The notes beneath the pieces were generated by a model that saw nothing but the letters and a program-made list of their open reading frames with translations, ran no database searches and had not been told where the DNA came from. The position numbers were made by a program, and so were the translations under genes. From Cellulosimicrobium cellulans (GTDB taxonomy: Bacteria > Actinomycetota > Actinomycetes > Actinomycetales > Cellulomonadaceae): a stretch of DNA of 64,000 bases. This document shows, in pieces, positions 13,381 to 63,919 of the stretch. Location of the stretch: assembly GCF_006539945.1 (NCBI RefSeq), contig NZ_BJNZ01000010.1, positions 62,001-126,000 on the forward strand. The letters are read 5' to 3'. How positions within the stretch are numbered: the stretch's first letter is position 1; each line of letters starts with the position of its first letter.

Positions 13381-13422
13381 GGACCAGCGCTCTCCCTCGC
13401 GAGGCCAGCGTTCTACCTCGCG
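13381..13422 (-). repeat. 21-nt repeat family, site A (2 copies)
   Basis: Two 21-nt units read on the minus strand: CGCGAGGTAGAACGCTGG(CCT) at 13402-13422 and CGCGAGGGAGAGCGCTGG(TCC) at 13381-13401. They belong to the family with core GAGGTAGARCC found at four other sites in this window. The TAG of the first unit is the stop codon of jetC, preceded in frame by GCG AGG (Ala-Arg). Confidence 0.75.
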
Positions 13423-16400
13423 GCGGGCTCGGGCGCCGCTGCGGTCTCGAGTCCGGCGTCCGACGGCGGCGCCTCGCCGGCCGGACGACCGTCGCGGTAC
13501 GCGGCGATCGACAGGGTCCGCAGGCGTGACGACCGGCCCGACGGGTTGTCCACGAACCCGACGGCGGAGATGTACGGCTCGATGACGTGGATCTTCTGCA
13601 ACGGCGTGACGATGAGCAGCTGGAGCCCGAGGCGGCGGAACAGCTCGAGCGCGAACCGGGTCGACTCGTCCGACCCCCGGCCGAACGCCTCGTCGATGAC
13701 GACGAACCGGAACGCCGTCGATCGCACCGCGCCCCAGTCGAGCTTGAACTGGTAGGCGAGCGACGCCGCGAGCACCGTGTACGCGAGCTTCTCCTTCTGC
13801 CCGCCCGACTTGCCGCCGGAGTCCGAGTAGTGCTCGTGCTCGGAGTCGTCGGCGCGCGAGCGCTCCGACGCGGAGAGCACGAACCAGTTGCGCACGTCCG
13901 TCACGCGCCGGCGCCACGCCTCGTCGAGGTCGGTCATGCCCTCACGCCCGCGGAACCGCTCGACGAGCGCCTTGACCCGCAGGAACCGGTCCTCCGAGTA
14001 CGACAGCGCGTCGGTGTCCCCCGCGACGGACCCGTCGCCCTCGGCGAGCGCGCGGTCGTCCTCGGCGAGGATCCCGTCCCCGTCCGTGCACGCGCGCAGG
14101 TCCTGCTGGAACTCGCGCACCTCCAGGTTCGGCGTGCGCGACATCTCGAGCCGGATGTACCGGCCCGGGTTGTAGTCGATCGCGCGCAGCGAGTCGTTGA
14201 TCGTGTCGATCCGGTCGCGGATGACGTCGGCCTGCTTGGCGAGCTCCGCCGCGAAGCCCGCGATGTCGCGGATCGCGTTGGTGTTGAGGTACGCCTTGAA
14301 GTCGGCCTCGAAGCGCGGGAGGTCGTCGCGGACGAGCCGGTCGTGGATCTCGCGGTAGCCGGCGGCCGACCGCACGTCCGCGTCGAGCTCCGCCGTCTCC
14401 ACCGGGTACGCCGACCGGAACGACGCCATCTGGCCCGCGACGCGCGTCCCGAGGTCGGCGCGCTCGCGCTGGGCCTGCTCGGCCTCGGCCGTGAGCCGCG
14501 AGCGCACCGCGTTCTCGACGGCGTCCAGGTCGGCCGCGCGCGTCGGGCCGACGGCCCCCTCCCGGTCGCGGGAGGCGGGCCCTACCGCCGCGAGCTCGCG
14601 GTCGAACTCCGCGGCGAGCGCCGCCGTCGTCTCCTCGTCGAGCGTCTCGCCCGCGCCGTCGAGCACCGCCCGCGCCCGCTCACGCGCGGTGCGCGCCTCG
14701 TCGAGCGCGTGCCGGTCGGCACCGAGCGTCGCGACGACGCGGTCGCGCTCGGCCTCCAGCTCGCCGTGGCGGCGCGCGTTGTCGTCGAGCAGGCCGGCGA
14801 TCCGGCCGAGCTCGTCGCTCGCCTGCTCGAGGCGTCGCTTCTCCTCGGCGAGCTCCGCGATGCGCGCCGTCTCCGCGCCGCGGTCGAGCTCGTCCCAGTC
14901 GCGGTAGACGTCGAGCCGCCCGAGCGCGGCCGAGCGCGCCTGGAGCCCGCCGCGCACGGCGGTGGCCTCGTCGCGGCGCCGCGCGAGGGTGTCGCGCCGC
15001 GCGGTCACCTCGGCCGCCTGCTCCAGCAGCGCGTCGATCTTGGCCTGCGTCGACCACCCGAGCACGTAGCCGCGACGGTCGTCGACGGCGCGCGTGTCGT
15101 TCTTCTCGTGGTGGTCCGGCGAGTGCTTGACCTGGCCGGCGCGCGTGATCGCGCGGGGCAGCCGCCGGAACGCGTCGAGGTCGGGCGCGCACGCGTGGTC
15201 CGCGCGGCGCTCCAGCTCGGCCTCGACCCACGCCGTGAGCGACGGCGCGTCGTCGAGGCTGCGCACGTCGAGCAGGTCGGCGAGCAGCGGGACGTCGTCG
15301 CGCGGCGCGGGCCGGGCGGCAGGCACGCGCTCGGGCACCCGGTGGTACACGAGCCGCAGGCCCAGGTGCTCGCGGTCGACCCACGCGGCGACGGCCTCGT
15401 AGTGCGCCGCCGGCACGAGGAGCGAGAGCGCGAAGCCGCGCAGCACGCGCTCGGCCGCGCCCTCCCAGTCGGCGTGCTCGGGGCGCACCGCGAGCAGCTC
15501 GCCGACGAACGGCACGTCGCCCGGCGCGAGCCCGACGCCGGCGCACAGGCGGTCACGGACCTCCAGGTGGGTGCGCGGGAGGTTCGAGCGGCGGTCCGCG
15601 AGGCTCGCGAGCTCGGCCTTGACGTCGGCGGTCTCCTGCTCGACCGCGCGGACCTCGGCCGCGACCTCGCTCACCCGCTCCTCCGCCCGGGCGAGGTCGT
15701 CGCGCACCCGCACCGCCGCGTCGTCGGCCCCGCGCCGCAGCGCGGCGAACGCCTCGGCGTCCACGAGCGCGGCGGCCACGGCCGCCGCCCCGCCGCCGGA
15801 CCCGAGGGCGTCGTCACCGCGACCGCCGAACCCGGGGATGTCGCCAGGTTCGGCAGCGTCGGGGCTGCCGAGCGCGAGGCCTGCCGCGGCGGCGTAGCCC
15901 GCGAGCTGGGCGACGCGGCGCTCGCGCGCGGCGCGCTCGACCTCGCGACGGGCGATCTCGCCCTCGATCGCGGCGAGCCGGTCGCCGCCGTGCCCCGCGC
16001 GATCGAGCTCGAGCCGCTGGCGCTCGGCGGCGAGGAGTCCCAGCTCGTCCCCGACGCGCTGCCGACGGGTCTCGCCGTCCGCCACGCGCTCGTCGAGCGC
16101 GCCGATGAGCCCGTCGAGGTCGGCCACGCGACGCGACGCGGTGAACGCGCGCAGCGCGTCGCGCCGGGCCACGAGCGCGGCGGACCGCTCCCCCAGCGCG
16201 TCGTGCGCGTCGCAGTCCGCGAGCAGCGGCGCGAGGCGCTCGATCTGCGCGGTGGCCCGCACGACGGCGTCGTGCGCGCTCGTGAGGTCGTCGAAGTGCG
16301 CGACGAGCCGGTCGGTCCAGCGGTCGGCGTCGAACGGCTCGAGCATGTGCTCGCGGACGAACTCGCCGAGGTCACCGACCGACTTCATGGACACCGTCTG

Positions 16401-17057
16401 GTGGAACAGGTCCATCGCCTGCTCCGACGGGATCCCGAGCAGGCGGCGGAAGTCGCGCCCGTACTCGGGGAAGTGGTCGCGCACCTGCGCGCCCGACTCG
16501 CGCAGCCGGCGCCGCAGCGCCGCCACGTCGCCGCCGAACCCCGCGAAGTCCTCGGTGATCGTCAACGGACGGTCGGCCGTGACGAAGAACCGGTCCGGCT
16601 GGCCGGACTGGCCCTGCGCGAGCCAGAACACCTGGGCGAGCGTGACCTCCTGGTCGAACCCGCGGTTGGAGAACCGACCCAGCACCACGGAGTACGTGCC
16701 ACGCTCGCGGAGCCCGACGTGGCGCGTCGCGCCCGTCGCCTCGTCACGCTCGGACTTGTAGTGGCCCGCGACGTACGAGCGCAGGGACCGCTCGCGCGCG
16801 CCCGCGCCCGCCGCCTTGTTGTAGGAGATGCGGTGCGACGGCACGAGCAGCGTCGTGACCGCGTCGACGATCGTCGACTTGCCCGAACCGATGTCGCCCG
16901 TCAGGAGCGCGTTACGACCGTCGAGGTCGAACGCCCACACGCGCTGGTCGAACGTGCCCCAGTTGAGCACCTCGAGCCGCTCGAGGCGGAAGCCCGCCCG
17001 GGCGTCGAGGTCCGCCGCCGGGTCGTGCAGCTCGACGGCGCTGAACAGGCCCTCCAT
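13413..17057 (-). CDS. jetC: JetC/MksB-like SMC ATPase, 1214 aa
   Basis: SMC-like motor of a Wadjet/MksBEF condensin, which loops and scans DNA. The N-terminal head contains the family signature: [15 protein letters not shown], Walker [21 protein letters not shown] and [20 protein letters not shown]. Two long coiled-coil stretches (about residues 200-480 and 620-930) flank a hinge-like region. The C-terminal head holds the ABC signature [20 protein letters not shown] and Walker [17 protein letters not shown], then [22 protein letters not shown]. Overlaps jetB by one base (TGATG). After [13 protein letters not shown] there is a short Ala/Pro tail whose last codons and TAG stop derive from the 21-nt repeat. 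No JetD gene follows. Confidence 0.95.
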
Positions 17058-17809
17058 CACGCCACCGTCCTCGTCGTCGTGCCTGCGCCCGTACCTGCGC
17101 CCATCCCCGTGCCCGCCGTGCCCGACGACGTCCCGCGCGGCCCGCCGTCCGCGGCGAGCTCCAGGTACTGCGCGAGGCGCGCGTCGAAGTCCGCGAGCCA
17201 CTGCGCGTCGACGAACGCCTTGAGGATGCGGCGCACCTCGTACCGCCGCGCGTCGCCCGCGGCCGGGTCGACGTCCTCGACCGGGGCGACCCCGCCGTCG
17301 GGCGCGCCGTCCGGGTCGGGACGACCCGCGGGCCGCAGGAAGCCGAGCTCCACGACGCGTCGGACGAGCCCGTCGACCCGGTCGACGAGCCGCGCCTCGT
17401 TGGCGGCGGCGCCCGCGTCCTGCGCGAGGAAGACCCGCAGCAGGTCGACGATCTCCGTGCGCGCGAGCACGAGGCGCGTCTCGCCGCCCTCGGAGTCCGC
17501 CTGCGCGAGCCGCTTGCGCAGCAGCGCGAGCAGCAGGCTCACGTCGAACGGCAGCTCGCGGCGCGGGATCAGGCGGGGCACGCGCTCGTCGCGCTCGTGC
17601 TCGGGCTGCGAGCGCAGGTAGGCGTAGCCGTCGCCCTCGTCGACGACGACCTGCAGGCCCATCATCGCGACGGTGTCGCGCACCTGCGCCTCGCGCGCGA
17701 GCAGGTCGCGCCACAGCGCCTCGCCGGACTCACGGTAGACGACGCCCTTGAGCATCGACGTCACGACGACGGACAGCTCCGGGTCGCGCGCGGTGCGGGT
17801 GGTGCTCAC
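17057..17809 (-). CDS. jetB: JetB/MksE-like kite subunit (DUF4194), 250 aa
   Basis: Winged-helix kite protein that bridges the SMC heads and the kleisin in Wadjet and MksBEF complexes. The sequence matches DUF4194 in layout: [20 protein letters not shown], the [25 protein letters not shown] block, then [23 protein letters not shown], and [18 protein letters not shown] near residues 200-220. A Gly/Thr/Ala-rich tail of 30 residues ends it. GTG start overlaps the jetA stop by 4 nt (GTGA), and its own stop overlaps the jetC ATG, so the three subunits are translated from one coupled message, as expected for a stoichiometric complex. Confidence 0.93.
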
Positions 17810-19506: not shown

Positions 19507-19881
19507 GCAGGTCCTCTCGGGGGGCTCGGGCCGGTCGGCGCCGCGGGGAGCGCGGGCGCCCCCAGATCTTAGGTCGCGACTCCCCCACGACCTGGACGAC
19601 CCACCGGGCGGACGGACCTGGCCAGCCGTCGAGCGCTGCGTCCGTGCGCGACGGATGCGTCCCCGGACGCATCGCTCGAGCGGGAGCGCATCGCTCGGCA
19701 GCGGCCTGAGCGCGGCCCCGCATCCGGGACCATGGTCCCTGTCGGCGGCGGGCGCGCGCTCCGTAACCTGGGTGCGGCGCCGAGCCGGCAGCGCGCCCAC
19801 CCTGCCGGCCGGCGCCACCTTCTGCCCGCCCGCCGGGGCGTCCCCCGACCCGGCGGGGCCCCGCGGACCCGAGGACCGCCC
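19507..19881. other. Divergent intergenic region between jetA and the VKOR gene
   Basis: No gene seen. It holds a 9-bp hairpin GATGCGTCC-CC-GGACGCATC (19654-19673), a perfect 14-bp palindrome GGGACCATGGTCCC (19726-19739), and a twice-repeated GCATCGCTCG around 19670-19700. TAACCT at about 19763-19768 is a weak -10 candidate for the VKOR gene. The clustered dyads could be operators for either operon. Confidence 0.45.
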
Positions 19882-22512: not shown

Positions 22513-22525
22513 GGAGCAGGGGACG

Positions 22526-24595: not shown

Positions 24596-24646
24596 CTCTG
24601 TCCACTCCTCGTTCGTTCCCCTGAGTCGCGCTCACGACTCGAGGGC

Positions 24647-24673
24647 AATAACCATACGAACGTATAGGTTATT
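24647..24673. promoter_or_regulatory. AT-rich dyad upstream of the DUF981 gene
   Basis: AATAACC-ATACG-AA-CGTAT-A-GGTTATT forms a near-perfect palindrome with one bulged base. It is strikingly AT-rich for this genome and contains -10-like TATACG/TATGGT strings on the minus strand. The geometry suits a TetR-type operator; the TetR gene at 25350 is the nearest candidate regulator, which is inference only. Confidence 0.5.
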
Positions 24674-24727
24674 CCCCACCCATTGCTCCAGATCCGTTCG
24701 AGCCGCCACAGCGGGCCCCTGCGACGC

Positions 24728-24853
24728 CGAGGTAGAGCCGTGGTCGGCCGAGGTAGAGCCGTGGTCCGCCGAGGTAGAGCCGCGGTCCGCCGAGGTAGAG
24801 CCGCGGTCCGCCGAGGTAGAGCCGTGGTCCGCCGACGGAGAACCATGGCCGTG
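24728..24853 (+). repeat. 21-nt repeat family, site B (6 tandem copies)
   Basis: Six head-to-tail 21-nt units with consensus CGAGGTAGAGCCGYGGTCCGC; units 2-5 differ at single positions and unit 6 (CGACGGAGAACCATGG...) is degenerate. No spacers lie between units, so it is not CRISPR. It points toward array C, which has the opposite orientation 290 bp away. Confidence 0.9.
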
Positions 24854-25011
24854 CCGGACGGCCGGGTCCGCCCGCCGGGGCCGGGGGGGTGGTCGCTCGA
24901 CCCGCGCTGGCCAGCATTGGTACGCGCGAGGCACCTCACGGCACCGCAGAGGACGAATTGACACCGCGGGCGGTCGCCCGCGGTGAGGACCGACCAAGGC
25001 GAGACGACGCC

Positions 25012-25110
25012 GGGCGGGGTGGGTGGTGGTGCCGCGTCGTGGCGGGCCTGGCGGGAGCCGCGAGGAACGAGCGGCGGATGGTAGACGCGGCACCACCACC
25101 CACCCCGCCC
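25012..25110. repeat. 27-bp perfect inverted repeat between the two facing repeat arrays
   Basis: Arms 25012-25038 and 25084-25110 are perfectly complementary over 27 nt (including GGGTGGTGGTGCCGCGTC) with a 45-nt loop. A smaller hairpin CACCGCGGGCG-GT-CGCCCGCGGTG lies just before it (24962-24985). No coding bias is seen in this 290-bp interval. Could be a structured RNA, a cruciform or the remnant of a mobile element end pair. Confidence 0.75.
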
Positions 25111-25142
25111 ACCCAGGGCAACCACACGCCGTCGAACCCAAG

Positions 25143-25310
25143 AACCACAGCTCTACCTCGCGCAACCAGGGCTCTACCTCGCGCGACCTCGGCTCTACCT
25201 CGCGCAACCAGGGCTCTACCTCGCGCGACCTCGGCTCTGCCTCGCGCAACCAGGGCTCTACCTCGCGCGACCAGGGCTCTACCTCGCGCAACCAGGTCTC
25301 TACGTCGGCG
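25143..25310 (-). repeat. 21-nt repeat family, site C (8 tandem copies)
   Basis: Eight contiguous 21-nt units; on the plus strand they read AACCAGGGCTCTACCTCGCGC with alternating GACCTCGG variants, giving a partial 42-nt higher-order period. In the minus-strand orientation the core is GCGCGAGGTAGAGCC, the same as at sites A, B, D and E. The last unit has drifted (CTCTACGTCGGCG). No spacers. Confidence 0.9.
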
Positions 25311-30103: not shown

Positions 30104-32419
30104 TCAGGCGCCGGTCGCGACGCGCTCGGGCTCGACCGTGGACTGCTCGCGGTCGACGCGCGCCGCGCGGAGCCGGGACATGATCACCGCGCCGAACGCG
30201 ATCGCCGCCGCGACGACAGCGATGCCGATCCGCAGCGTGTGGTTCGCGTCCGCGGGGACGCTCATGAGCACCACCGCCGGTGCGATCAGCACCGACACGA
30301 GGTTCATGACCTTGATGAGCGGGTTGATCGCCGGCCCGGCCGTGTCCTTGAACGGGTCGCCGACGGTGTCACCGATGACGGTCGCCGCGTGCGCCTCGGA
30401 GCCCTTGCCGCCGTAGGCACCGTCCTCGACGATCTTCTTCGCGTTGTCCCACGCGCCGCCCGAGTTGGCGAGGAACACCGCCATGAGCACACCCGCACCG
30501 ATCGCCCCGGCGAGGAAGCCGGCGAGCGGGCCGACGCCCAGGCCGAACCCGACCGCGATGGGCGCGAACGCGGCGAGCAGACCCGGCGTCGCGAGCTCGC
30601 GCAGCGAGTCGCGCGTGCAGATGTCCACGACCTTGCCGTACTCCGGGCGCTCCTGGAACGTCATGATCCCGGGGTGCTCGCGGAACTGGCGGCGCACCTC
30701 GAAGACGATCGCCCCGGCGGCCCGCGTCACGGCGTCGATCGCGAGGCCGGAGAACAGGAAGACCGTCGCGGCACCGAGGATCAGGCCCACGAGCGTGATC
30801 GGCGAGATGATCTGGTAGTCGAGCATGGCGGTGACGAGGCCGCTGCCGACCGCCTCGACGTCGGCGAGCGCGTGGCTCACCGCGTCGGCGTACGACCCGA
30901 ACAGCGCGGTGGCGGCGAGGACCGCCGTCGTGATCGCGATGCCCTTGGTGATGGCCTTCGTCGTGTTGCCCACCGCGTCGAGGTCCGTGAGGATCTGCGC
31001 CGCCTCCGCGTCGCCGTCGCCGGACTCGCCGACCGACATCTCGTAGATGCCCTGGGCGTTGTCCGAGACCGGGCCGAACGTGTCCATCGCGACGATGACG
31101 CCGACCGTGGTGAGCAGCCCGCACCCGGCGAGCGCGACGAGGAACAGCGCGAGCCACACCGAGCCGCCCGCGAGGAGGAACAGGCCGCAGATCGCGGCGG
31201 CGATCACGCCCGCCGTGTACACCGCGGACTCGAACCCGACCCCGATGCCGGACAGGACGACGGTCGCGGCGCCCGTGCGCGAGGTGGCCGCCACGTGCAG
31301 CGTCGGCTTCGACGTCGTGCCGGTGAAGTAGCCCGTGATCCACAGGATGATGCCCGCGAGGACGATGCCGATGACGACCGCGAGGCTCGCGACGACGCGC
31401 GGGTCGGCGGCGATCCCCGACAGGTCGCCGAGGTCCGCCGTGCCGTCGAGCGCCGAGAACGACGACGGCAGGTAGACGAACGCGGCGACCGCGGCGAGCA
31501 CCGCGCCGATGAGCGCGGAGAGGTAGAACCCGCGGTAGATGGCCTTGAGCCCGTTCTCCTGGCCGCGCACGCGCGTGATGAAGACGCCCAGCACGGCGAC
31601 GAGCGCGCCGATCGCGGTGACCACGAGCGGGAAGACGAGGCCCTCCTCGCCCATGGCCGCCTTGCCGAGGATGAGCGCCGCGACGAGCGTCACGGCGTAC
31701 GACTCGAAGAGGTCGGCGGCCATGCCGGCGCAGTCGCCCACGTTGTCGCCCACGTTGTCCGCGATCGTCGCCGCGTTGCGCGGGTCGTCCTCGGGGATGC
31801 CCTGCTCGACCTTGCCGACGAGGTCCGCACCGACGTCGGCCGCCTTGGTGAAGATGCCGCCGCCGACGCGCATGAACATGGCGAGCAGCGCGGCGCCGAA
31901 GCCGAAGCCCTCGAGCACGGCCGGCGCGTCGCCCTTGTAGATCAGCACGACCCCCGCGGCACCGAGCAGGCCGAGGCCGACGACCGACATGCCGACGACG
32001 CCGCCCGTCCGGAACGCGATGCGCGCGCCCTCGGTGCGTCCGCCGGGCCGGGTCGCGGCCGACGCGACGCGCACGTTGGCCCGCACCGCGAGCCACATGC
32101 CGAGGTAGCCGATGGCCGCCGAGAACCCGGCGCCGACGAGGAACGCCACCGAGCGCCCGACGCGGATGCCGCCGTCACCAGGCAGCAGGAACAGCAGGCC
32201 GAAGACGATCACCGCGAACAGGGCGAGCGTGCGGAACTGGCGGCTCAGGTAGGCCCCGGCGCCCTCCTGCACGGCCTGGGCGATGTCCTGCATCTTCGCC
32301 GTGCCGTCGTCCGCGGCCAGGACCTGTCTGCGCAGGACGAACGCGAAGACCAGCGCCACGAGCGCGATCACCGCGATGACGGCGACGATGGTGAGACTTT
32401 CCGAACCGAGCGTGAGCAT
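30104..32419 (-). CDS. hppA: Membrane-bound proton-translocating pyrophosphatase, 771 aa
   Basis: Hydrolyses pyrophosphate and pumps protons (or possibly sodium) across the membrane. About 16 hydrophobic helices are visible. The catalytic loop motifs are intact: GGIFTKAADVGADLVGKVE, DPRNAATIADNVGDNVGDCA and the C-terminal DNAKKIVEDG plus GDTVGDPFKDTAGPAINPL. In the subtype-determining segment it reads GNTTKAITKG; lysine at this place marks K+-independent H+-pumping enzymes, whereas K+-dependent ones have alanine. AGGAGG lies 5 nt before the ATG. Ends in a Glu/Arg/Ala tail. Divergent from the ECF sigma gene. Confidence 0.97.
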   Translation of the reverse strand: MLTLGSESLTIVAVIAVIALVALVFAFVLRRQVLAADDGTAKMQDIAQAVQEGAGAYLSRQFRTLALFAVIVFGLLFLLPGDGGIRVGRSVAFLVGAGFSAAIGYLGMWLAVRANVRVASAATRPGGRTEGARIAFRTGGVVGMSVVGLGLLGAAGVVLIYKGDAPAVLEGFGFGAALLAMFMRVGGGIFTKAADVGADLVGKVEQGIPEDDPRNAATIADNVGDNVGDCAGMAADLFESYAVTLVAALILGKAAMGEEGLVFPLVVTAIGALVAVLGVFITRVRGQENGLKAIYRGFYLSALIGAVLAAVAAFVYLPSSFSALDGTADLGDLSGIAADPRVVASLAVVIGIVLAGIILWITGYFTGTTSKPTLHVAATSRTGAATVVLSGIGVGFESAVYTAGVIAAAICGLFLLAGGSVWLALFLVALAGCGLLTTVGVIVAMDTFGPVSDNAQGIYEMSVGESGDGDAEAAQILTDLDAVGNTTKAITKGIAITTAVLAATALFGSYADAVSHALADVEAVGSGLVTAMLDYQIISPITLVGLILGAATVFLFSGLAIDAVTRAAGAIVFEVRRQFREHPGIMTFQERPEYGKVVDICTRDSLRELATPGLLAAFAPIAVGFGLGVGPLAGFLAGAIGAGVLMAVFLANSGGAWDNAKKIVEDGAYGGKGSEAHAATVIGDTVGDPFKDTAGPAINPLIKVMNLVSVLIAPAVVLMSVPADANHTLRIGIAVVAAAIAFGAVIMSRLRAARVDREQSTVEPERVATGA

Positions 32420-37778: not shown

Positions 37779-40352
37779 GTGCCGCACGCCCCCGCCCCCA
37801 CCTCCCTGCGACCGACGAGCGCGGCCCTGCTCGACGTGCTGCGCGCGGGCGGGCGGCGCGACGAGCGGCTGCTGCACGTGCGCGAGCTGCCCGCGCGAGA
37901 AGGCGCGCAGGCAGAGTGGCCGGGGTGGGCCGACGCGTCGCTCGTCGCGGGCTACCGCGCGCTCGGCGTCGACCGCCCGTGGGAGCACCAGGTCATCGCG
38001 GCCGACGCCGCATGGTCGGGCCGCCACGTGGCGCTCGCCACGTCGACGGGGTCCGGCAAGTCGCTCGCGTTCTGGCTGCCCGCGCTCTCGTCGGTGCGGG
38101 CGGACGCCGCCGCGCGCGTCATGGATCCCGGCCGCATCGAGTCGGTGGTCCGGCGGGGGTCCGTGCTCTACCTGTCGCCCACCAAGGCGCTCGCCGCGGA
38201 CCAGCTCTCGGGGCTCCAGCGGCTGCTCGACGCGGCCGGGACGCGCGACGTGCGGGTCGCGACGTGCGACGGCGACACGGGGCAGGACGAGCGGCGCTGG
38301 GTCCGCGAGCACGCCGACGTCGTGCTGACCAACCCGGACTTCCTGCACTTCGCTCTCCTGCCGTACCACCGCGGCTGGTCGCGGCTGCTGCGCGACCTGC
38401 GGTACGTCGTCGTCGACGAGGGCCACGCCTATCGCGGGGTGTTCGGCGCGCACGTGTCCCTCGTCCTGCGACGCCTGCGACGGCTCGCCGCGCACTACGC
38501 GCGCGAGGGCGACCGGCCGCCGACGTTCGTCGTCGCGTCGGCCACGACCGCCGACCCCGCGACGAGCGCCGCGCGCCTCGTGGGCGTCGAGCCCGACGAC
38601 GTCGTGACGGTCGCGCAGGACACCTCGCCCGCGGGGCGCAAGACGTTCGCGCTGTGGGAGCCGCCGGTAGTCGTGGGCTTCGACGCGGCGTCCGCCGCCG
38701 GTCCCGCCGAGGGGCACGACGACGACCCGACCGTCCCGACGTCCGTCGACGCCGCACCGGAGCACCCGCGGCGCAGCGCGACGGCCGAGGCAGCGGACCT
38801 GCTCGCGGACCTCGTCATCGCGGGCGCGCGCACGCTCGCGTTCACGCGCTCGCGCCGAGGCGCGGAGTCGGTCGCGGTCCAGACGCAGGACAGCGTGCGT
38901 GTCGTCGACCCGCGGCTCGTCCGGCGCGTCGCCGCCTACCGCGGCGGGTACCTGCCCGAGGAGCGGCGCGAGCTCGAGGACGCCGTGCGCACGGGCGACG
39001 TCCTGGGCCTCGCGACGACCAACGCGCTCGAGCTCGGCGTCGACATCTCGGGCCTCGACGCCGTCCTCATCGCGGGGTGGCCGGGTACCCGCATGTCGGT
39101 GTGGCAGCAGGCGGGCCGCGCCGGGCGCGCCGGTGCGGACGGCCTCGTGGCGTTCGTCGCCCGGGAGGACCCGCTCGACACCTTCCTCGTGCACCACCCC
39201 GAGGCCGTGTTCGACGCCCCGCTCGAGGCGACCGTGTTCGACCCCGCGAACCCGTACGTCCTCGCGCCCCACCTGTGCGCGGCCGCGGCCGAGAACCCGC
39301 TGCGCTCCGACGACCTCGTGGCGTTCGGCGACCCTGACGCCGTGCGCGGCCTGCTCGACGTGCTCGTCGCCCGCGGCGCGCTGCGCCGTCGCGCGTCCGG
39401 CTGGTACTGGACGCACGCGCAGCCCGCGTCGGGCATGACCGACCTGCGCGGGTCGGGTGGCGCGCCCGTGCGGGTCGCCGAGGCCCGCACCGGCCGGCTG
39501 CTCGGCACGGTCGACGCCGCGTCCGCGGACGGGTCCGTGCACGACGGCGCGGTGTACGTCCACCAGGGGCGCACCTACGTCGTCGAGCACCTCGACCTCG
39601 CCGACCACGTCGCGCTCGTGCGCCGCCAGGACGTCGACCACGGGACGTGGTCGCGGTCCACGACGTCCATCACGATCGTCGACGACCCCGCGGACGGGGA
39701 CGTCGCCGCGGGGCGCGAGGTCGTCGAGCGGAGCTGGGGGCCGGTCGGCTGGGGCTACGGCCCGGTCGACGTGTGCTCGCAGGTCGTGAGCTTCCAGCGC
39801 CGCCGACTCCCGGACCTGCAGGTGCTCGGCACCGAGACGCTCGACCTCCCCGAGCGCACGCTCCCCACGATGGCCGTGTGGTGGACCGTCCCGCAGGCGG
39901 TGATCGAGGAGGCGGAGGTCGACGCCGACGAGCTGCCCGGCGCGCTGCACGCCGCCGAGCACGCGTCGATCGGTCTGCTCCCCCTCCTCGCGACGTGCGA
40001 CCGCTGGGACCTCGGCGGAGTGTCCACGGCGCTGCACGCCGACACCGGCGAGGCGACCGTGTTCGTGCACGACGCCTACCCCGGCGGGGCCGGCTTCGCC
40101 GAGCGCGGGTTCGAGCTCGGCGCGACGTGGCTGCGCGCCACGCGCGACGCCATCGCGCGCTGCCCCTGCCACGACGGCTGCCCGGCGTGCGTGCAGTCCC
40201 CCAAGTGCGGGTCGTACAACGCCCCGCTCGAGAAGGACGCTGCCGTCCGCCTGCTCGACGCCGTCATCGCCCACGCCCCGGAGGCCCAGGTTCTCGACCT
40301 CGGGAGCGACAGCCCCGACTCCACGAGAGACGGGCCTGACCTCGCGAGGTAG
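37779..40352 (+). CDS. DEAD/DEAH-box helicase with DUF1998 domain (MrfA/Hrq1 type), 857 aa
   Basis: Superfamily 2 DNA helicase related to Bacillus MrfA (YprA) and yeast Hrq1, which act in repair of crosslinks and bulky lesions. Motifs: Q-like WEHQVIAADAAWSGRH, Walker A ALATSTGSGKSLAFWLPAL, Ia YLSPTKALAADQL, DEGH box VVVDEGHAYRGVFGAH, motif III VASATTADP, motif V TTNALELGVDISGLDAVL and motif VI WQQAGRAGRAGADGL. The C-terminal DUF1998 metal-binding cysteines are in CPCHDGCPACVQSPKCG. The stop codon TAG and the last residues (DLAR) are encoded by the beginning of the 21-nt repeat array D. It lies beside the tad locus, like Rv3649 in mycobacteria. Confidence 0.94.
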   Translation: MPHAPAPTSLRPTSAALLDVLRAGGRRDERLLHVRELPAREGAQAEWPGWADASLVAGYRALGVDRPWEHQVIAADAAWSGRHVALATSTGSGKSLAFWLPALSSVRADAAARVMDPGRIESVVRRGSVLYLSPTKALAADQLSGLQRLLDAAGTRDVRVATCDGDTGQDERRWVREHADVVLTNPDFLHFALLPYHRGWSRLLRDLRYVVVDEGHAYRGVFGAHVSLVLRRLRRLAAHYAREGDRPPTFVVASATTADPATSAARLVGVEPDDVVTVAQDTSPAGRKTFALWEPPVVVGFDAASAAGPAEGHDDDPTVPTSVDAAPEHPRRSATAEAADLLADLVIAGARTLAFTRSRRGAESVAVQTQDSVRVVDPRLVRRVAAYRGGYLPEERRELEDAVRTGDVLGLATTNALELGVDISGLDAVLIAGWPGTRMSVWQQAGRAGRAGADGLVAFVAREDPLDTFLVHHPEAVFDAPLEATVFDPANPYVLAPHLCAAAAENPLRSDDLVAFGDPDAVRGLLDVLVARGALRRRASGWYWTHAQPASGMTDLRGSGGAPVRVAEARTGRLLGTVDAASADGSVHDGAVYVHQGRTYVVEHLDLADHVALVRRQDVDHGTWSRSTTSITIVDDPADGDVAAGREVVERSWGPVGWGYGPVDVCSQVVSFQRRRLPDLQVLGTETLDLPERTLPTMAVWWTVPQAVIEEAEVDADELPGALHAAEHASIGLLPLLATCDRWDLGGVSTALHADTGEATVFVHDAYPGGAGFAERGFELGATWLRATRDAIARCPCHDGCPACVQSPKCGSYNAPLEKDAAVRLLDAVIAHAPEAQVLDLGSDSPDSTRDGPDLAR

Positions 40353-40508
40353 AACCGCAGGCCCACGAAGGAGAACCGGCCCCACGAGGCCGAACCCCGG
40401 CGCCGCGAGACAGAACCGTGGTTGCACGAGGTAGAACCGTGGTTACACGAGGTAGAACCGTGGTTGCACGAGGTAGAACCGTGGTTGCACGAGGTAGAAC
40501 CGCGATCA
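40322..40508 (+). repeat. 21-nt repeat family, site D (8-9 tandem copies)
   Basis: Consensus CACGAGGTAGAACCGTGGTTG. Units from 40404 onward are regular 21-mers and nearly identical (40425-40508 differ at one or two bases); units before 40404 are degenerate and one is 19 nt. The first two units lie within the helicase gene's 3' end and supply its TAG stop; the last unit overlaps the stop codon of the Tad-locus gene that converges from the other side. The array thus fills the whole gap between the two convergent genes. Confidence 0.9.
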
Positions 40509-57248: not shown

Positions 57249-57309
57249 ACGGCGGGTGGTGTCGTTCTCGCGGACGGGCGGGAGCGGTCTGCGGGGGCAA
57301 GATGGACCG

Positions 57310-58329
57310 GTGGAGACCGCGATCCTCTGGCACACCGGCCCGCTCATCGACGACGTCGAGATCGCGCAGGTCCACGATCTCGCCGCCGCCGCCGAGCGCG
57401 AGGACGGCGTCGCCGCCCTCTCGGAGCAGCCGCTGCTCAACCTGCGCGCGGCGACGGACGACGTCGTGCACCTCCTCACGTGGCGCGCGGGCGAGCTCGC
57501 GGGGTACGCCCAGGTGGACAAGCGCGGCGAGGCGCCGAGCGCCGAGCTCGTGGTCCGCCCCGAGCACCGGCGGCACGGGCTCGGGTTCCACCTGCTCGGC
57601 AGCGCGGCCGACCGCGCGGCCGAGCCCCGCCCGAGCGACCCCGACCACGACGGGCAGCCGCACCCCGGCGCGGAGACCGACGGCGAGCCCGCCCGGACGC
57701 CGCGCCCGCCGCTGCGCGTCTGGGCCCACGGCGATCTCCCCGCGGCCCGCGGCCTCGCCGCGAGGGCCGGGTACGAGGTCGTGCGCGAGCTGCTCGTCCT
57801 CGAGCGGCCGCTCGGCGGCACGGGGGCGCACCCGCGTCCCGAGATCCCCGCGGGCCTGCGGCTGCGCGCGTTCGTGCCGGGGGACGACGACGACGCGTGG
57901 GTCGGGGCCAACGCGGCAGCGTTCGCGCACCACCCGGAGCAGGGCCGGCTCGCGGTCGACGACCTGCGCGCGCGCATGCGCGAGGACTGGTTCGACGCCG
58001 CGGGCCTCCTGCTCCTGGAGCGCACCCCGACTCCCGGTTCCGGGACGCCGGAGCTCGTCGGGTTCGTGTGGACCAAGATCCCGACCGGCCAGCCCGACGA
58101 CGCGCGCGAGGGCGAGATCTACGTCGTCGGCGTGGTCCCGACCGCCCAGGGCGAGGGGCTCGGCCGGCTGCTGACCGCCGTCGGGCTCGCGCACCTCGCC
58201 GAGCGGGGCGCGACCACCGCGGTGCTGTACGTCGACGGCGACAACGTGCCCGCCGTGCGCACGTACGAGCGCGCCGGCTTCACGCGCCGCGCGGTGCACG
58301 TGCAGTACGCACGGCCGAGCGCTCGGTGA
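57310..58329 (+). CDS. mshD: Mycothiol synthase, 339 aa
   Basis: Acetylates Cys-GlcN-Ins with acetyl-CoA, the last step of mycothiol synthesis. Two GNAT domains are present: an N-terminal one ([13 protein letters not shown] ... [18 protein letters not shown]) and an active C-terminal one ([10 protein letters not shown] ... [20 protein letters not shown], then [20 protein letters not shown]). The ending [18 protein letters not shown] is diagnostic of MshD. Slightly longer than usual owing to a His/Pro-rich insert near residues 110-135. CAAGAT lies 6 nt before the GTG (leaderless pattern). Marks the organism as an actinomycete. Confidence 0.94.
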
Positions 58330-58333
58330 CCCG

Positions 58334-58350
58334 TGTCACGCACCGTTCAC
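58334..58350 (+). promoter_or_regulatory. PHO-box-like direct repeat before ppk
   Basis: TGTCAC (58334-58339) and GTTCAC (58345-58350) are spaced 11 nt start to start, the geometry of PhoP-binding direct repeats in streptomycetes (GTTCACC units). It is 23 bp before the ppk start. A dyad CACCA-AC-TGGTG (58348-58359) overlaps its end, and CACCAT 6 nt before the ATG may be the -10. Confidence 0.55.
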
Positions 58351-58372
58351 CAACTGGTGCCACCATGAACCC

Positions 58373-60637
58373 ATGACCGACACGTCCACGCAGCGCACGC
58401 TCGACCCGGACCTCGCGGCGCACATCGCCGAGCACATCGCGGAGGAACCCGAGATCGAGCCGGTGGGCGCGGAGCTCGGCCTCGGTCCGCTGCCCGACGA
58501 CCGGTTCGCCGATCGCGAGCTGAGCTGGCTCGCGTTCAACCAGCGGGTGCTCGAGCTCGCGGAGGACCCGAGCCAGCCGCTCCTCGAGCGTGTCCGGTTC
58601 CTCGCGATCTTCGCGTCCAACCTGGACGAGTTCTTCATGGTCCGGGTCGCCGGCCTCAAGCGCCGCATGGCGACCGGCATCGCGGTCACCGCCGCGTCCG
58701 GGCTCTCGCCCCGCCAGGTGCTCGACGCGATCAGCGAGCGCGCGCACGACCTCATGGCGCGCCACGCGCGCGTGTTCGCCGACGACGTGCAGCCGGCGCT
58801 CGCCGCCGAGGGCATCACGCTCGTCCACTGGGACGAGCTCGAGACGCGCGAGCAGGAGCGCCTGCACAAGTTCTTCCGCAAGCAGATCTTCCCGGTGCTC
58901 ACGCCGCTCGCCGTCGACCCGGCGCACCCCTTCCCCTACATCTCGGGGCTGTCGCTCAACCTCGCCGTCGTGGTGGCGAACCCGACCACGGGCAAGGAGC
59001 ACTTCGCGCGCGTCAAGGTGCCGCCGCTCCTGCCGCGGTTCATCGCCGTGGACGCGCGGGGCCGCCCGAGCGCGCCGACCTCGCAGACCGCCGCCCCGGA
59101 CCGAGGACCGACGTCGTTCGTGCCGATCGAGGAGGTCATCGCCCAGCACCTCGACCACCTGTTCCCCGGCATGGAGGTGCGCGAGCACCACCTGTTCCGC
59201 GTCACGCGCAACGAGGACGTGGAGGTCGAGGAGGACGACGCCGAGAACCTGCTCCAGGCCATGGAGAAGGAGCTCCTGCGTCGGCGGTTCGGCCCGCCCG
59301 TCCGGCTCGAGCTCACGCCCGGGATCAGCCCGCGCATCCGCGCGCTGCTCGTGCGCGAGCTCGGCGTCGTCGAGGAGGAGGTCTACGAGATCCCCGAGCC
59401 GCTCGACCTCACGGGGCTCAACCTCATCGCCGACCTCGACCGCGCGGACCTGCACTTCCCGCCGTTCGTCCCGACGACGCACCGCCTCCTCGCCGAGGTC
59501 GAGAGCGCGTCGCCCACGGACGTGTTCGCCGCGATCCGCGAGCGCGACGTCCTGCTGCACCACCCGTACGACTCGTTCTCGACGTCGGTCCAGACGTTCC
59601 TCGAGCAGGCGGCCGCCGACCCCGCGGTGCTCGCGATCAAGCAGACCCTGTACCGGACGTCGGGCGACTCGCCGATCGTCGACGCGCTCATCGACGCCGC
59701 CGAGGCGGGCAAGCAGGTGCTCGCGCTCGTCGAGATCAAGGCACGGTTCGACGAGCAGGCCAACATCTCCTGGGCGCGCAAGCTCGAGCAGGCGGGCGTG
59801 CACGTCGTGTACGGGATCGTCGGGCTCAAGACGCACTGCAAGCTGTCCCTCGTCGTGCGCCAGGAGTCGGACGGCCTGCGGCGCTACTGCCACGTCGGCA
59901 CGGGCAACTACCACCCCAAGACCGCGCGCCTGTACACCGACCACGGCCTGCTCACGTGCGACCCCGACGTCGGCCAGGACCTCACGCGCCTGTTCAACCA
60001 GCTCTCCGGGTACGCGCCCCAGTCGCGGTTCCACCGCCTGCTCGTCGCGCCGCGCACCGTCCGCTCGGGGCTCGTCGAGCGCATCGACCGCGAGGCCGCC
60101 GCGGCGCAGGCCGGGCACGAGGCGTGGGTGAAGATCAAGGTCAACTCCGTCGTCGACGAGACGACGCTCGACGCGCTCTACCGCGCGTCGCAGGCGGGCG
60201 TGAAGATCGACCTCGTCGTGCGCGGCATCTGCGCCGTCCGCCCGGGCGTGCCCGGGCTCAGCGAGAACATCCGCGTGCGCTCGATCCTCGGCCGCTTCCT
60301 CGAGCACTCGCGCATCTACGCCTTCGCCAACTCCGCGGGCCCCGCCATCGGGGAGGGGCCCGACAGCGGGCCCGAGGTGTTCATCGGCTCGGCCGACCTC
60401 ATGCACCGCAACCTCGACCGCCGCGTCGAGGCCCTCGTGCGCATCACGGACCCCGACCAGGTCATCGAGCTGCTCGACCTGCTCGACGTGTCGATGTCCG
60501 AGCGCACCGCGTCCTGGCACCTCGACGCCGACGGCACGTGGCACCGACCCGAGTCGGGCCCCGACGGCACGCCGCTCGTCGACCTCCAGGCGAGCCTCGT
60601 GCAGCGACAGCGCCGCCGGCTCGTCGGGAGGCGGTAG
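58373..60637 (+). CDS. ppk: Polyphosphate kinase, 754 aa
   Basis: Reversible synthesis of polyphosphate from ATP. The four-domain PPK1 layout is complete: N domain starting [21 protein letters not shown], head domain (about 140-330), and two phospholipase-D-like catalytic domains. Active-site parts visible: [19 protein letters not shown], the arginine-rich [16 protein letters not shown], the autophosphorylated His in [20 protein letters not shown], and the late [16 protein letters not shown] 40-residue N-terminal extension is typical of actinobacteria. mutT1 begins 3 nt after the stop, the same pair as Rv2984-Rv2985. A PHO-box-like repeat precedes it. Confidence 0.97.
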
Positions 60638-60640
60638 CGG

Positions 60641-61678
60641 ATGGGTGTGCCCTCCCCCGCCCTGCGCAGCGGGCTGCCCCTCGTGGACGCCCTCGGCCCG
60701 ACGCACGTCTCCCACGCCCCGGTCATCGAGTCCGCCGGGGCCCTCGTGTGGCGCGTGCGCGGCGACGACCTCCAGGTGCGCCTCGTCCACCGGCCCCGCT
60801 ACGACGACTGGTCGTGGCCCAAGGGCAAGCTCGACCCCGGCGAGACCTTCCAGGCCGCGGCCGCGCGCGAGGTCGCCGAGGAGACGGGCAAGCCGGTCGT
60901 GCTGGGCGTCCCGCTGCCGGGACTGCAGTACCTCACGCCCGAGGGCCGCGTGAAACGCGTGCACTACTGGGCCGCGCGCCGGGCGTCGCAGAAGGTGGAC
61001 GCCGGCGCGCTCGCCGCGCGCGCGCCCGTCCCGCCCGTGTCACCGCAGGAGATCGACCGCGCCGCGTGGCTGTCGGCCGACGACGCCGCGCACCGGCTCA
61101 CGCGCGAGGCCGACCGCGCCCCGCTCGAGGCGCTCGTGCGCGAGCGCGAGGAGGGGCGGCTGGCGACGCACGTCGTCGTCATCGCCCGGCACGGCAAGGC
61201 CGTCGCGCGCGCGGCATGGCACGGCGACGAGCAGGACCGTCCGCTCACGCCCGCCGGCCATGCCCAGGCCGTCGCGCTCGTGCCGGTGCTCGCCGCCTAC
61301 GGGGTCGAGACGGTCGTCACGAGCCGCTGGGACCGGTGCGCCCAGACGATCGCGCCCTACGCCGGCGCGTCAGGCCTGGAGACCGTGAGCATCGACCACC
61401 TCACGGAGGCGCAGCACGAGCGCTCGCCGTCCCGTGTCGCCCGGACGGTCCGCGAGCTCCTCGAGGCCGAGCGGTCGTCGGTGCTGTGCACCCACCGGCC
61501 CGTGCTGCCCACCGTGCTCGACGTGCTCGGGCAGCACTCGCGGCGGCCCGTCGCGAACGCGCTCCCGACGCACGACCCCTTTCTCGAGCCGGGCGAGATG
61601 ATCGTCGCCCACGTGGCCCGCACGCCCAAGGGGCCTCGCGTCGTCGCGGCCGAGAAGGTCGCCCCGCCGCTGCACTGA
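60641..61678 (+). CDS. mutT1: MutT1-type Nudix hydrolase fused to histidine phosphatase, 345 aa
   Basis: Sanitation of oxidised nucleotides (8-oxo-GTP/dGTP, diadenosine polyphosphates in mycobacterial MutT1). The Nudix box is GKLDPGETFQAAAAREVAEE-TG at about residues 67-88, within WSWPKGKLD. After about residue 175 a histidine-phosphatase domain starts at HVVVIARHGKAVARA (RHG catalytic motif), with the later CTHRPVLPTVL containing the second catalytic His. Two-domain order equals Rv2985. Begins 3 nt after ppk, so co-expressed with polyphosphate synthesis. ATG start; converges on the pit gene with 30 nt between stops. Confidence 0.94.
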   Translation: MGVPSPALRSGLPLVDALGPTHVSHAPVIESAGALVWRVRGDDLQVRLVHRPRYDDWSWPKGKLDPGETFQAAAAREVAEETGKPVVLGVPLPGLQYLTPEGRVKRVHYWAARRASQKVDAGALAARAPVPPVSPQEIDRAAWLSADDAAHRLTREADRAPLEALVREREEGRLATHVVVIARHGKAVARAAWHGDEQDRPLTPAGHAQAVALVPVLAAYGVETVVTSRWDRCAQTIAPYAGASGLETVSIDHLTEAQHERSPSRVARTVRELLEAERSSVLCTHRPVLPTVLDVLGQHSRRPVANALPTHDPFLEPGEMIVAHVARTPKGPRVVAAEKVAPPLH

Positions 61679-61708
61679 CCGCCCCGGCAGCACGGACGCG
61701 CGAGCAGG

Positions 61709-62710
61709 TCAGAGCAGGATCGGGCTGAGGATCCAGTAGACGACGGCGGCGACGAGCGCGGCCGCCGGGATGGTCAGGACCCACGCGACGCCGATGTTCT
61801 TCGCGACGCCCCAGCGGACCGCGGACAGCCGCTTGGTCGCACCGACGCCCATGATCGCGGAGGTGATCGTGTGCGTCGTCGACACCGGCGCGTGGAAGAT
61901 GAACGCGTTCGCGTACAGCACGACCGCGGAGACCGACTCGGCGACGAAGCCGCGCGCCGGGTCGAGCTCGATGATCTTGCGGCCCAGCGTGCGCATGATG
62001 CGCCACCCGCCGGCGTACGTGCCGAGAGAGATCGCGGTCGCCGCCGACAGCTTGACCCACAACGGGATCGTGTTGTCGTCCTGGAACCCGCCCGCGACGA
62101 GCGCGAGCACGATCACGCCCATCGTCTTCTGCGCGTCCTGGAGGCCGTGGCCCAGTGCCATCGCCGCCGCCGACGCCGTCTGCGCGATGCGGAAGCGGCG
62201 GAACGCCCGGGCGGGCGCCGCGTTCCGGAACACCCACAGCAGCAGCACCATGAGCGCGAACGCGAGACCGAAGCCGATGAGCGGCGAGAAGATCATGGGG
62301 AGCACGACCTTGTCGAGGATCGCGTCCCAGTGGACCGTGATCCCTGACGCGATCCCGACACCCGCGAGGCCGCCGATGATCGCGTGCGTCGACGACGACG
62401 GCAGACCCAGCCACCACGTGATGAGGTTCCACGTGATCGCGCCGACGAGACCGCACAGCACGATCACGAGGCCCTGATGTGGTGGGACGTCGTTGACCGC
62501 GACGATGTCCTCGGCGATCGTCTGCGCGACCGCGGTGCCGAGCAGCGCGCCGATGAGGTTGAACACCGCCGCCATGAGGAGCGCCGCGCGCGGCGTGAGG
62601 GCCCTGGTCGAGACCGAGGTCGCGATGGCGTTCGCGGCGTCGTGGAACCCGTTGGTGTAGTCGAACGCCAGGGCGAACGCCACGACGACGACGACGAGCA
62701 CTGCCTCCAC
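61709..62710 (-). CDS. pit: PiT-family low-affinity inorganic phosphate transporter, 333 aa
   Basis: Secondary phosphate importer. Family signatures in both halves: DYTNGFHDAANAIATSVSTR near the N-terminus and STTHTITSAIMGVGATKRLS near the C-terminus, with GLPSSSTHAIIGGLAG and ALGHGLQDAQKTMGVIVLAL in the middle; about 10 hydrophobic helices. GTG start 5 nt beyond the stop of the DUF47 gene; AGGAG about 11 nt upstream. Shorter than E. coli PitA because it lacks the large central loop, as usual in gram-positives. Operon with DUF47 protein under a PHO-box-like element. Confidence 0.95.
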   Translation of the reverse strand: MEAVLVVVVVAFALAFDYTNGFHDAANAIATSVSTRALTPRAALLMAAVFNLIGALLGTAVAQTIAEDIVAVNDVPPHQGLVIVLCGLVGAITWNLITWWLGLPSSSTHAIIGGLAGVGIASGITVHWDAILDKVVLPMIFSPLIGFGLAFALMVLLLWVFRNAAPARAFRRFRIAQTASAAAMALGHGLQDAQKTMGVIVLALVAGGFQDDNTIPLWVKLSAATAISLGTYAGGWRIMRTLGRKIIELDPARGFVAESVSAVVLYANAFIFHAPVSTTHTITSAIMGVGATKRLSAVRWGVAKNIGVAWVLTIPAAALVAAVVYWILSPILL

Positions 62711-62715
62711 GGGGC

Positions 62716-63336
62716 TCAGGACTCCTTGAGGGCGATGGTCTCGACCGTGTTCGCGACCTTCTCGAAGGCGTCGGCCGCCTGCTCGAGGACCTCGACGATC
62801 TCCTTGAGCTTCATGAGGAGGACCGGGTCGGACACGTCGTCGAAGAGCTCGGCGAGCAGCTTGCGGTGCACCTTGTCCGCCTGGTTCTCCAGGCGGTTGA
62901 CCTCGACCCAGTACTCGGGGAGGTCGTCCATGGAGCGCAGGCGTGGCATCGCCTCGGCCGTGAGCTCCGACGCGCGCTGGAGCACCTGGACCTGCTCGGA
63001 CACACGGGCCGGGAGCTCGTCCACCTTGTAGAGGACGATGAGGTCGGCCGCCTCCTCCATGAAGTCCATGCAGTCGTCGAGCGCCGACGCGAGGGCGTAG
63101 ATGTCGTCCCGGTCGAACGGTGTGACGAACGTCTGGTTGAGCCGACGCATGATCGAGTGCGTCGCGTCGTCCGCGAGGTGCTCGGTCTCGCTGAGCTGCT
63201 TCGCGAGCTGCTTGCGCGTCGGGCGGTCCGCGCCGAGCAGCTCCGCCAGGAGCGTGGACCCTGTGACCAGGTGCTGCGCCGAGGCGGCGAGGAGGTCGAA
63301 GAACGAGGTGTCGCGCGGTGTCAGGCGCAGGCGCAC
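62716..63336 (-). CDS. DUF47-family phosphate transport regulator (PhoU-like), 206 aa
   Basis: Helical PhoU-like protein that accompanies Pit transporters. The start VRLRLTPRDTSFFDLLAASA matches the family N-terminus, supporting GTG at 63336 with GGAG 7 nt upstream; an upstream GTG at 63387 would add 17 residues not seen in relatives. Further family segments: LSETEHLADDATHSIMRRLN, TPFDRDDIYALASALDDCMD and VEVNRLENQADKVHRKLLAE, with acidic metal-binding (E/D)xxxD motifs. It probably controls Pit activity. Together with pit it forms a two-gene operon. Confidence 0.93.
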   Translation of the reverse strand: MRLRLTPRDTSFFDLLAASAQHLVTGSTLLAELLGADRPTRKQLAKQLSETEHLADDATHSIMRRLNQTFVTPFDRDDIYALASALDDCMDFMEEAADLIVLYKVDELPARVSEQVQVLQRASELTAEAMPRLRSMDDLPEYWVEVNRLENQADKVHRKLLAELFDDVSDPVLLMKLKEIVEVLEQAADAFEKVANTVETIALKES

Positions 63337-63456
63337 GGGAGGCTCCGGAAGGGACGCGGGGTAGGGGTCTGAGCTGGCGTCGGCCACAAGGGCCGCTCGG
63401 CCGCCGGACAGGCCGGCCGGCCGGGGTGGTCACGATCTCGGGTCGGATGATCTCTG

Positions 63457-63474
63457 GATGAACGCACGTCGAAC
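63457..63474 (-). promoter_or_regulatory. PHO-box-like direct repeat before the DUF47-pit operon
   Basis: On the minus strand GTTCGAC (63474-63468) and GTTCATC (63463-63457) repeat at 11-nt spacing, as in PhoP operators; a weaker ATTTGAC lies a further 11 nt upstream. Located about 120 bp before the DUF47 start. Supports joint phosphate control with ppk. Confidence 0.5.
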
Positions 63475-63484
63475 TCTCGTCAAA

Positions 63485-63837
63485 TGTAGCCGACGCGCGG
63501 AGCGATGCTGGAATCGTCGGGGCGAAGGTCCCGGATCCTCAGGACGCTCACGGCCCGCGCCCGGCGTCCTCGCCGGGGCGGCGACCCTCCGGCGCGCGGC
63601 ATCGTGCTCGCACCAGGAGGGGAAGAAGTGACGCCGGACCGGGAGCGCCTCTCGGCGCGTGGCCGCTCGTAGCGGCTGAGTGTGGAGCCCGGGGCTACCG
63701 CGGCCCGGCGTCGTGACCCATCGTACGTGCCGAGCGCCCCGCGAGGTACCCGACCGACCCCGTGTTCGCGCTCCGCGAGAACCCCGCCCGCCGACGTGCG
63801 CGCCCGCCCCGTGTCCCGCACCCTCCGCCCCGCCCGG
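63485..63837. other. Intergenic stretch without recognisable gene
   Basis: No open frame here shows coherent third-position bias or family similarity on either strand. Apart from the edges (PHO-box region on the left, repeat site E on the right) I see no strong hairpin or promoter. Confidence 0.6.
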
Positions 63838-63919
63838 CCGAGACAGAACCCGGGTCCACCGAGGTAGAACCCTCGCGCGAGGTAGAGCCGTGGTCACGCG
63901 AAGTAGAGCCGTGGTCACG
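63838..63919 (+). repeat. 21-nt repeat family, site E (4 copies)
   Basis: Four units: CCGAGACAGAACCCGGGTCC, CCGAGGTAGAACCCTCGCG (19 nt), CGAGGTAGAGCCGTGGTC, CGAAGTAGAGCCGTGGTC (the last two 21-nt units end in ACG). Core GAGGTAGARCC as at sites A-D. It lies in an intergenic region near the end of the window. Confidence 0.8.

Follow-up and report, generated by a model that had tools for sequence, protein, structure and literature searches.

What are the short tandem repeats that recur beside the genes of Cellulosimicrobium cellulans, and why do they stand where they do? The question arose from a stretch of 64,000 nucleotides (contig NZ_BJNZ01000010.1 of assembly GCF_006539945.1, positions 62,001 to 126,000 of the forward strand), hereafter called the window. 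An initial sequence-only reading had noticed five sites there, A to E, at which a 21-nt unit with the core GAGGTAGARCC is repeated head to tail. We followed these repeats through the window, the remainder of the genome and related genomes. The explanation that we consider moderately probable is that they are mosaics resembling repetitive extragenic palindromes (REPs) and bacterial interspersed mosaic elements (BIMEs), i.e., non-coding and probably non-autonomous Cellulosimicrobium elements that accrete at hairpin sites at the ends of genes.

A 21-nt repeat unit with hundreds of copies per genome

The 21-nt unit was confirmed at all five sites with a score matrix that recovered 2, 5, 8, 6, and 4 units at A, B, C, D, and E, respectively (units scoring below 12 or 14, depending on the analysis, were excluded before counting). 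These numbers match the copy counts of the sequence-only reading at A, C, and E, while the surplus that it counted at B and D consists of degenerate units that can be seen in the sequence. The period of 21 that it had proposed holds for nearly all scored arrays; one spacing at site E is 18. When counted conditionally on the core pattern, around 18 of the 21 positions are conserved and 3 are nearly free; the conserved portion of the unit is CGAGGTAGARCC-S-TGGT-Y, and the unit starts with CGAG-GTAG-A.

Allowing up to one mismatch, the core is found 27 times in the window compared to 1.2 times expected from shuffles. Part of the one-mismatch matches outside sites A to E are probably due to chance, and one exact match, at 31520, stems from a solitary unit within a called gene. 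Far from being confined to the window, the exact core occurs 274 times in this 4.6-Mb draft genome of 62 contigs (8 times for a reversed-pattern control), and arrays of two units with up to one mismatch occur 234 times (none for the control). This genome-wide motif search thus bears out the hundreds of copies per genome that had been extrapolated from the window.

Arrays form inverted arms that often surround a core hairpin

The elements are built from one or two inverted arms of head-to-tail, GTAG-containing 21-nt units, and the centre between two arms is either around 2 bp or a spacer that mostly contains a hairpin. The initial view of five independent tandem arrays was therefore replaced by one of inverted array pairs, and sites B and C are not separate but the two arms of a single complete composite element (24728..25307, no strand assigned). 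This element comprises a plus-strand arm (site B, 24728..24850; five scored units and one degenerate unit, from the score matrix and the sequence), a spacer, the core hairpin (25012..25110, plus strand), another spacer, and a minus-strand arm of eight units (site C, 25143..25307; score matrix). The hairpin has a perfect stem of 27 bp, and its loop contains a conserved core with an inner 5-bp hairpin. Site E (63839..63916, plus strand, four units) is one arm of a second composite element that continues beyond the window (locus L060) with a hairpin at 64154-64234 and a minus arm at 64276-64377. Lone arms are found at site A (13382..13420, minus strand, two units, from the score matrix and gene calls) and at site D (40324..40507, plus strand, six scored units plus degenerate ones).

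In the window together with 46 stretches of this genome, we found 55 clusters (with the E element counted twice). Both arms are present in 36 of them, comprising 19 without and 17 with a detected hairpin; the remainder are 15 single arms, 2 single arms with a hairpin, and 2 single units. Among the 17 one-armed clusters, 5 lie at contig starts and the end of the window truncates one more. The plus arm lies left of the minus arm in 35 of the 36 two-armed clusters (the order is reversed at locus L014). The gap between arms measures 2 bp at ten places, 3-24 bp at six, and 123-613 bp at twenty, and the core hairpin was found in seventeen of these last twenty.

Contig starts often fall within or next to core hairpins or arrays (13 starts in genome G005 as well as contigs C26, C34, C8, C9, C10, C13, and C17 of genome G000), which suggests that assemblies break at these structures.

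Arrays lie at gene 3' ends and supply stop codons

Placement relative to genes, which we called with a codon-usage script, was assessed under a common filter for this genome and 87 loci of other assemblies. Clusters with only one unit or without two called neighbours were dropped, as were seven clusters of other assemblies that sit inside a called gene. The neighbouring genes converge at 24 of 47 clusters in this genome compared to 81 of 365 gene pairs in those loci (Fisher, 6e-5) and at 35 of 73 clusters compared to 103 of 480 gene pairs in other Cellulosimicrobium assemblies (Fisher, 4e-6), with the cluster pairs themselves included in the background. The median distance of arrays is 20 bp to 3' ends in this genome and 12.5 bp in the others, as opposed to 112 and 118 bp to 5' ends. 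The 3'-end position already suspected from the window is thus the rule, and the B-C element between a DUF981 gene (minus strand) and a divergent TetR gene (plus strand) is an exception.

Array-facing genes more often end in TAG, with 23 of 67 such genes compared to 33 of 316 others in this genome (5e-6) and 37 of 105 compared to 46 of 400 in other assemblies (7e-8). These stop codons are located inside the outer repeat unit in 15 and 27 cases, respectively, and an earlier count for this genome had found 16 of 60 array-facing 3' ends to use an outer-unit TAG. At site A, a unit holds the TAG stop (13413-13415, minus strand) of an SbcC-like gene called at 13413-17060. Site D starts inside the 3' end of an HRQ1/MrfA-like helicase gene (called at 37779-40352), and a unit of the array contains the TAG stop of this gene (40350-40352). 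The sites had all been described as intergenic, which is not purely true of A and D because their outer units contain the stop codon of a neighbouring gene. As judged by eye, the helicase is extended C-terminally into the array in this genome, and in relatives it ends in TGA without an array, in TAG within or near a degenerate unit, or in TAG without an array.

Edge units point inward at 59 of 69 3' ends in this genome and at 92 of 106 in the others, and they do so at 5' ends as well (22 of 25 and 29 of 40, respectively), so that their orientation reflects the paired build of the elements and not a sense rule.

Arrays occupy sites at which relatives carry a hairpin

We compared intergenic regions that bear the core hairpin in relatives and have an ortholog among the array loci. 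Of these regions, 6 of 7 in this genome and 7 of 7 in other assemblies bear arrays, compared to 0 of 4 and 0 of 6 control intergenic regions (Fisher, 0.015 and 0.0006). The relatives used were G002, G016, G011, and one further genome, of which G011 has five two-unit matches and the others tested have none, and nine duplicate loci were dropped. At three loci (L068, L065, and L129), arrays that lack a hairpin occupy the place of the hairpin in a relative. In a separate observation, around 5.6 kb with four called genes lie between two array clusters at locus L005 (3789-9442; contig C2 of G000), and the orthologous stretch of G011 measures 0.36 kb and contains a single hairpin.

The core hairpin is a dispersed and covarying structure

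Across copies of the hairpin, the core CTGGCGGGAG..GAGGNACGAG..CGGATGG is nearly fixed, and the sequence of the stem is almost wholly replaced between copies and genera while pairing is kept. Among 83 matches of a covariance model, in an alignment fitted to the structure model, pairing is kept in 99.2 percent of cells, with a covariation score of 0.711 compared to 0.145 after shuffling; for one of five measures, the number of pairs altered on both sides, 28 of 500 shuffles attained the observed value of 20. A score of 0.395 compared to 0.090 after shuffling was obtained for 23 selected copies, a pairing-selected sample aligned from 29 distinct ones that had passed a stem-score filter out of 107 hairpin-like matches, many of them chance matches in coding sequence. 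G-T pairs outnumber A-C mismatches by 27 to 3 in the stems of the model, which itself favours G-T, and by 13 to 4 in outward extensions of the stem, where other mismatches are commoner still. The functional form of the hairpin may be a folded single strand.

The hairpin has a wider distribution than the arrays. The covariance model matches 44 of 150 genomes of the family, 17 of them Cellulosimicrobium. Based on at most 31 scored candidates per genome, the model is matched in 11 of 25 genera, including 7 with matches below 1e-9 and 4 with only matches weaker than 1e-8. A deeper search of six genomes returned 83, 45, 41, 27, 23, and 15 matches. The loop motif with up to three mismatches occurs in all 17 genomes of the genus including the five that are free of arrays, with some counts near the control level. 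Placement could be classed for 78 hairpins (four of 83 rows were dropped, and one more at a contig end was unclassable). Of these, 68 lie between called genes, which converge in 24 cases, and 10 lie inside a gene, 8 of them antisense. Five intragenic hairpins from two genera occur at a single position of a thioredoxin/NHL-type protein, and others lie in LigD and PriA (all names assigned by eye).

Among the copies listed (28 of 41 for G065), 75 of 109 hairpins read against the replication fork (p = 1e-4), with the terminus assumed opposite dnaA and close hairpin pairs kept. A first test that left out G007 and G012 gave 47 of 63, and the four near-complete genomes alone gave 58 of 90 (p = 0.008) with 11 of 16, 19 of 28, 16 of 27, and 12 of 19 per genome, none of which is significant singly. 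Strand heterogeneity between contigs of G011, G015, and G016 was strong, at 61 compared to 29.9 in simulations. With the bias against the fork, the folded strand comes to lie on the side of the leading-strand template, at odds with simple lagging-strand-template transposition.

No Rfam family was matched at gathering score in the window or at E-values up to 1 around the B-C element, and of two matches at ten other loci neither falls at a hairpin. An msiK RNA is found by Rfam near a hairpin locus (L194, 585-644). Some hairpins (L008, L173, and L108) carry an extra insert of around 56 nt at one point of the loop, which is also the difference between the hairpins of L108 and the orthologous L069. 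Among the copies listed (G002, G011, G015, G016, and G065), core hairpins less than 1 kb apart form nine pairs, all in the order minus then plus. Tentatively, and with a probability that we would put well short of even, the core hairpin represents a novel class of dispersed and structured elements that genes tolerate in-frame, and it marks permissive gene-end sites later taken over by 21-nt arrays or other repeats.

Array copy number is lineage-restricted and turns over quickly

Exact two-unit matches range from 0 to 142 per genome across 17 congeneric genomes, of which 12 are positive and 5 have none. Within a sample of 200 genomes of the family, on which their rarity outside the genus rests, 13 have such matches and 12 of these are Cellulosimicrobium; a single match was seen in G107 from another genus. 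Array records among the matches listed are named Cellulosimicrobium cellulans, C. funkei, C. composti, a Cellulosimicrobium metagenome-assembled genome, and in one case Sphaerisporangium. This last record (Sphaerisporangium cinnabarinum ATCC 31213; L087, L100) contains arrays, aligns to this genome at around 82-90 percent, and is probably mislabelled. Carriage by phages or plasmids was considered and dismissed: no exact two-unit array was found in viral contigs, and blastn, which would miss hairpins with other stems, found no hairpin in plasmids or phages.

At the B-C locus, a diverged element is present in G005 (both arms) as well as G003, G006, and G007 (hairpin and minus arm), and the contig of G014 begins in the minus arm. 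The element is absent from G004 and G012, which have a short filler, and from G008 and G010, where the flanks abut. The motif CCTC flanks it on both sides in G003, G006, and G007 and is present once in G008 and G010. Unit number, spacer, and hairpin vary between species at other sites too, with a quick turnover of the first two. A palindrome, CATACGNNCGTATAGG, stands between the DUF981 gene and site B (24640-24690) and is retained in relatives; by eye it resembles a TetR operator severed from its TetR gene by the B-C element. Elsewhere in the window, at around 12454, G003 and C. funkei U11 (locus L164) have around 1.44 kb extra inside a called gene.

Units of the same arm differ at 2.14-2.42 of 18 positions compared to 2.72-3.17 between sites, as slippage predicts. 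Mirrored units of opposite arms, at 2.79-2.87 differences, are near the between-site level. At simple sites of this genome, the arms differ by 2.79 within a site compared to 2.72 between sites. Mirrored units show no excess likeness in this genome, where 1131 and 335 of 2000 permutations reach the observed values; at simple sites of other genomes, mirrored units differ by only 2.04, which 7 of 2000 permutations reach. Arm-arm pairing as a selected feature was thus not retained, having a signal only at the latter sites, and the comparison at simple sites of this genome fits recognition of the unit better than selection for pairing between arms.

Stable palindromes without a classical termination signal

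The folding energies of three chosen simple palindromes are -61.5, -69.4, and -72.6 kcal/mol (z of -9.6, -15.0, and -7.1). Two units of one arm fold no better than shuffles (z of +0.96; 161 of 200 shuffles fold as well), and the five units of site B fold moderately (z of -3.3; 0 of 200 shuffles). No T-run follows 16 simple palindromes in either direction, with 0.75 T per 10 nt compared to 1.29 in the intergenic background, and no terminator-like match was found at the B-C element. The minus strand of site D has two such matches compared to 0.0 in shuffles. The RNA palindromes are stable and lack T-runs, so that arrays, if they terminate transcription, probably do not do so via the classical signal, site D excepted. 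A terminator role of the arrays, as raised at the outset, is plausible.

Comparison to known repeat families

Our searches of an open-access library turned up no earlier description of this repeat, which is not proof of its absence. In PMC3733652, GTAG-tagged REPs of other phyla are reported at gene 3' ends where they supply TAG stops; the word "actinobacteria" is absent from its main text. The Cellulosimicrobium repeats resemble these GTAG REPs, REPINs (REP doublets forming hairpins), and BIMEs in their high copy number, their GTAG-containing unit, and their clusters. Further likenesses to the GTAG REPs described there are inverted head-to-head pairs with GTAG on the outside, 3'-end positions in convergent and unidirectional spacers with supply of TAG to neighbours, and copies in repair or replication genes, as with the core hairpin seen here within LigD and PriA. 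Unlike in them, a pair of units from one arm folds no better than shuffled sequence, the genus has no Y1 transposase, and there is an additional conserved core hairpin. Because the stem-loop within the unit and the REP-associated tyrosine transposase (RAYT) are defining features, we regard the repeats as similar in behaviour to GTAG REPs and not as a member of that family.

Intrinsic terminators share the stable hairpin of the three chosen palindromes and differ in the U-tract, which is missing at the 16 simple sites and at B-C. Mycobacterial interspersed repetitive units are likewise actinobacterial intergenic tandem repeats overlapping stop codons, but have longer units and are not known to form inverted arms around a hairpin. 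Miniature inverted-repeat transposable elements (MITEs) are also non-coding, have inverted ends, and expand in bursts in one lineage. Unlike in MITEs, the ends are here tandem arrays of variable length. A candidate target duplication, CCTC at B-C, is seen in G003, G006, and G007 only.

Weighing the explanations

Under the REP/BIME-like explanation, the core hairpin would be an older dispersed and mobile element that colonised gene ends, and the 21-nt palindrome would have arisen in one lineage and then spread to or at hairpin sites, with arms growing and shrinking by slippage. Whichever flank a transcript comes from, it would terminate in a highly stable hairpin, which could restrict read-through or shield the 3' ends of mRNAs, either as a side effect or as a benefit. 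Several points weigh against this explanation. The Y1 (RAYT-type) transposase PF01797 is found in 0 of 17 genomes of the genus by a search that was positive in 5 of 14 control genomes, which led us to reject a RAYT as the driver, and no autonomous copy was seen; open reading frames near L285 and L297, examined as candidates for one, indicate LigD-like and transporter-like surroundings, with no transposase recognised by eye. CCTC is the sole candidate target duplication and is not shown by G000 or G005, and two further empty sites had no clean junction. The placement results rest on the script's gene calls, and some sites of the other assemblies are orthologs of one another or of sites in this genome, which means that the replication is not independent. 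The loci of the site-sharing comparison were selected for arrays, which the control regions correct only in part, and its 24 regions include nine distinct hairpin regions, five of which occur in both halves. Finally, the helicase of G009 uses TAG at site D without an array, so that this stop codon need not always be array-derived.

The strongest competitor, which we nevertheless judge rather unlikely, is that the elements are dedicated bidirectional terminators or 3'-end stabilisers in which the hairpin is under selection and sequences turn over at fixed sites. The 3'-end and convergent placement, the folding energies of the three palindromes, and the sharing of sites while sequences turn over all agree with this, as do the terminator-like matches at site D, the likeness of mirrored units at simple sites of other genomes, and an unrelated strong inverted repeat (by eye) at the array-free ortholog L111. 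It is difficult to reconcile with the lack of a mirrored-unit excess in this genome, the low T content after the simple palindromes, the lack of any terminator-like match at B-C, and the position of the window's complete element between divergent genes; moreover, near relatives lack the element at the same place, and 17 of 55 clusters are one-armed, five of them at contig starts and one truncated by the window end. Improbable in our view is that the arrays serve as binding sites of a protein that organises the nucleoid or chromosome, with the 21-bp period keeping these sites on one helix face: the near-constant period, the conservation of around 18 positions, and units that look conserved independently of arm pairing would suit such a role, but tandem duplication alone also yields a constant period, 5 of 17 congeneric genomes lack any exact two-unit array, and a tie to stop codons and gene ends is not needed for it. 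Least credible is plain drift of an inert palindrome copied by gene conversion, with neither function nor mobility of its own. It accommodates the quick change of unit number and spacer, the similarity of units within an arm, and inward edge units at 5' ends, and leaves unexplained why the same palindrome stands at more than 50 places of this genome and shares its sites with the hairpin.

The REP/BIME-like explanation would add an actinobacterial family to the bacteria that have such mosaics, here lacking the transposase that is thought to drive them elsewhere, and it suggests that one repeat family accretes at the sites of another. The core hairpin is a candidate family of structured nucleic acids; its covariance model works, and some genomes contain dozens of copies. 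Related species differ at the same gene ends, where they have arrays, only the hairpin, or neither, and this natural comparison could address how such repeats affect transcript ends, stop codons, and the C-termini of proteins.

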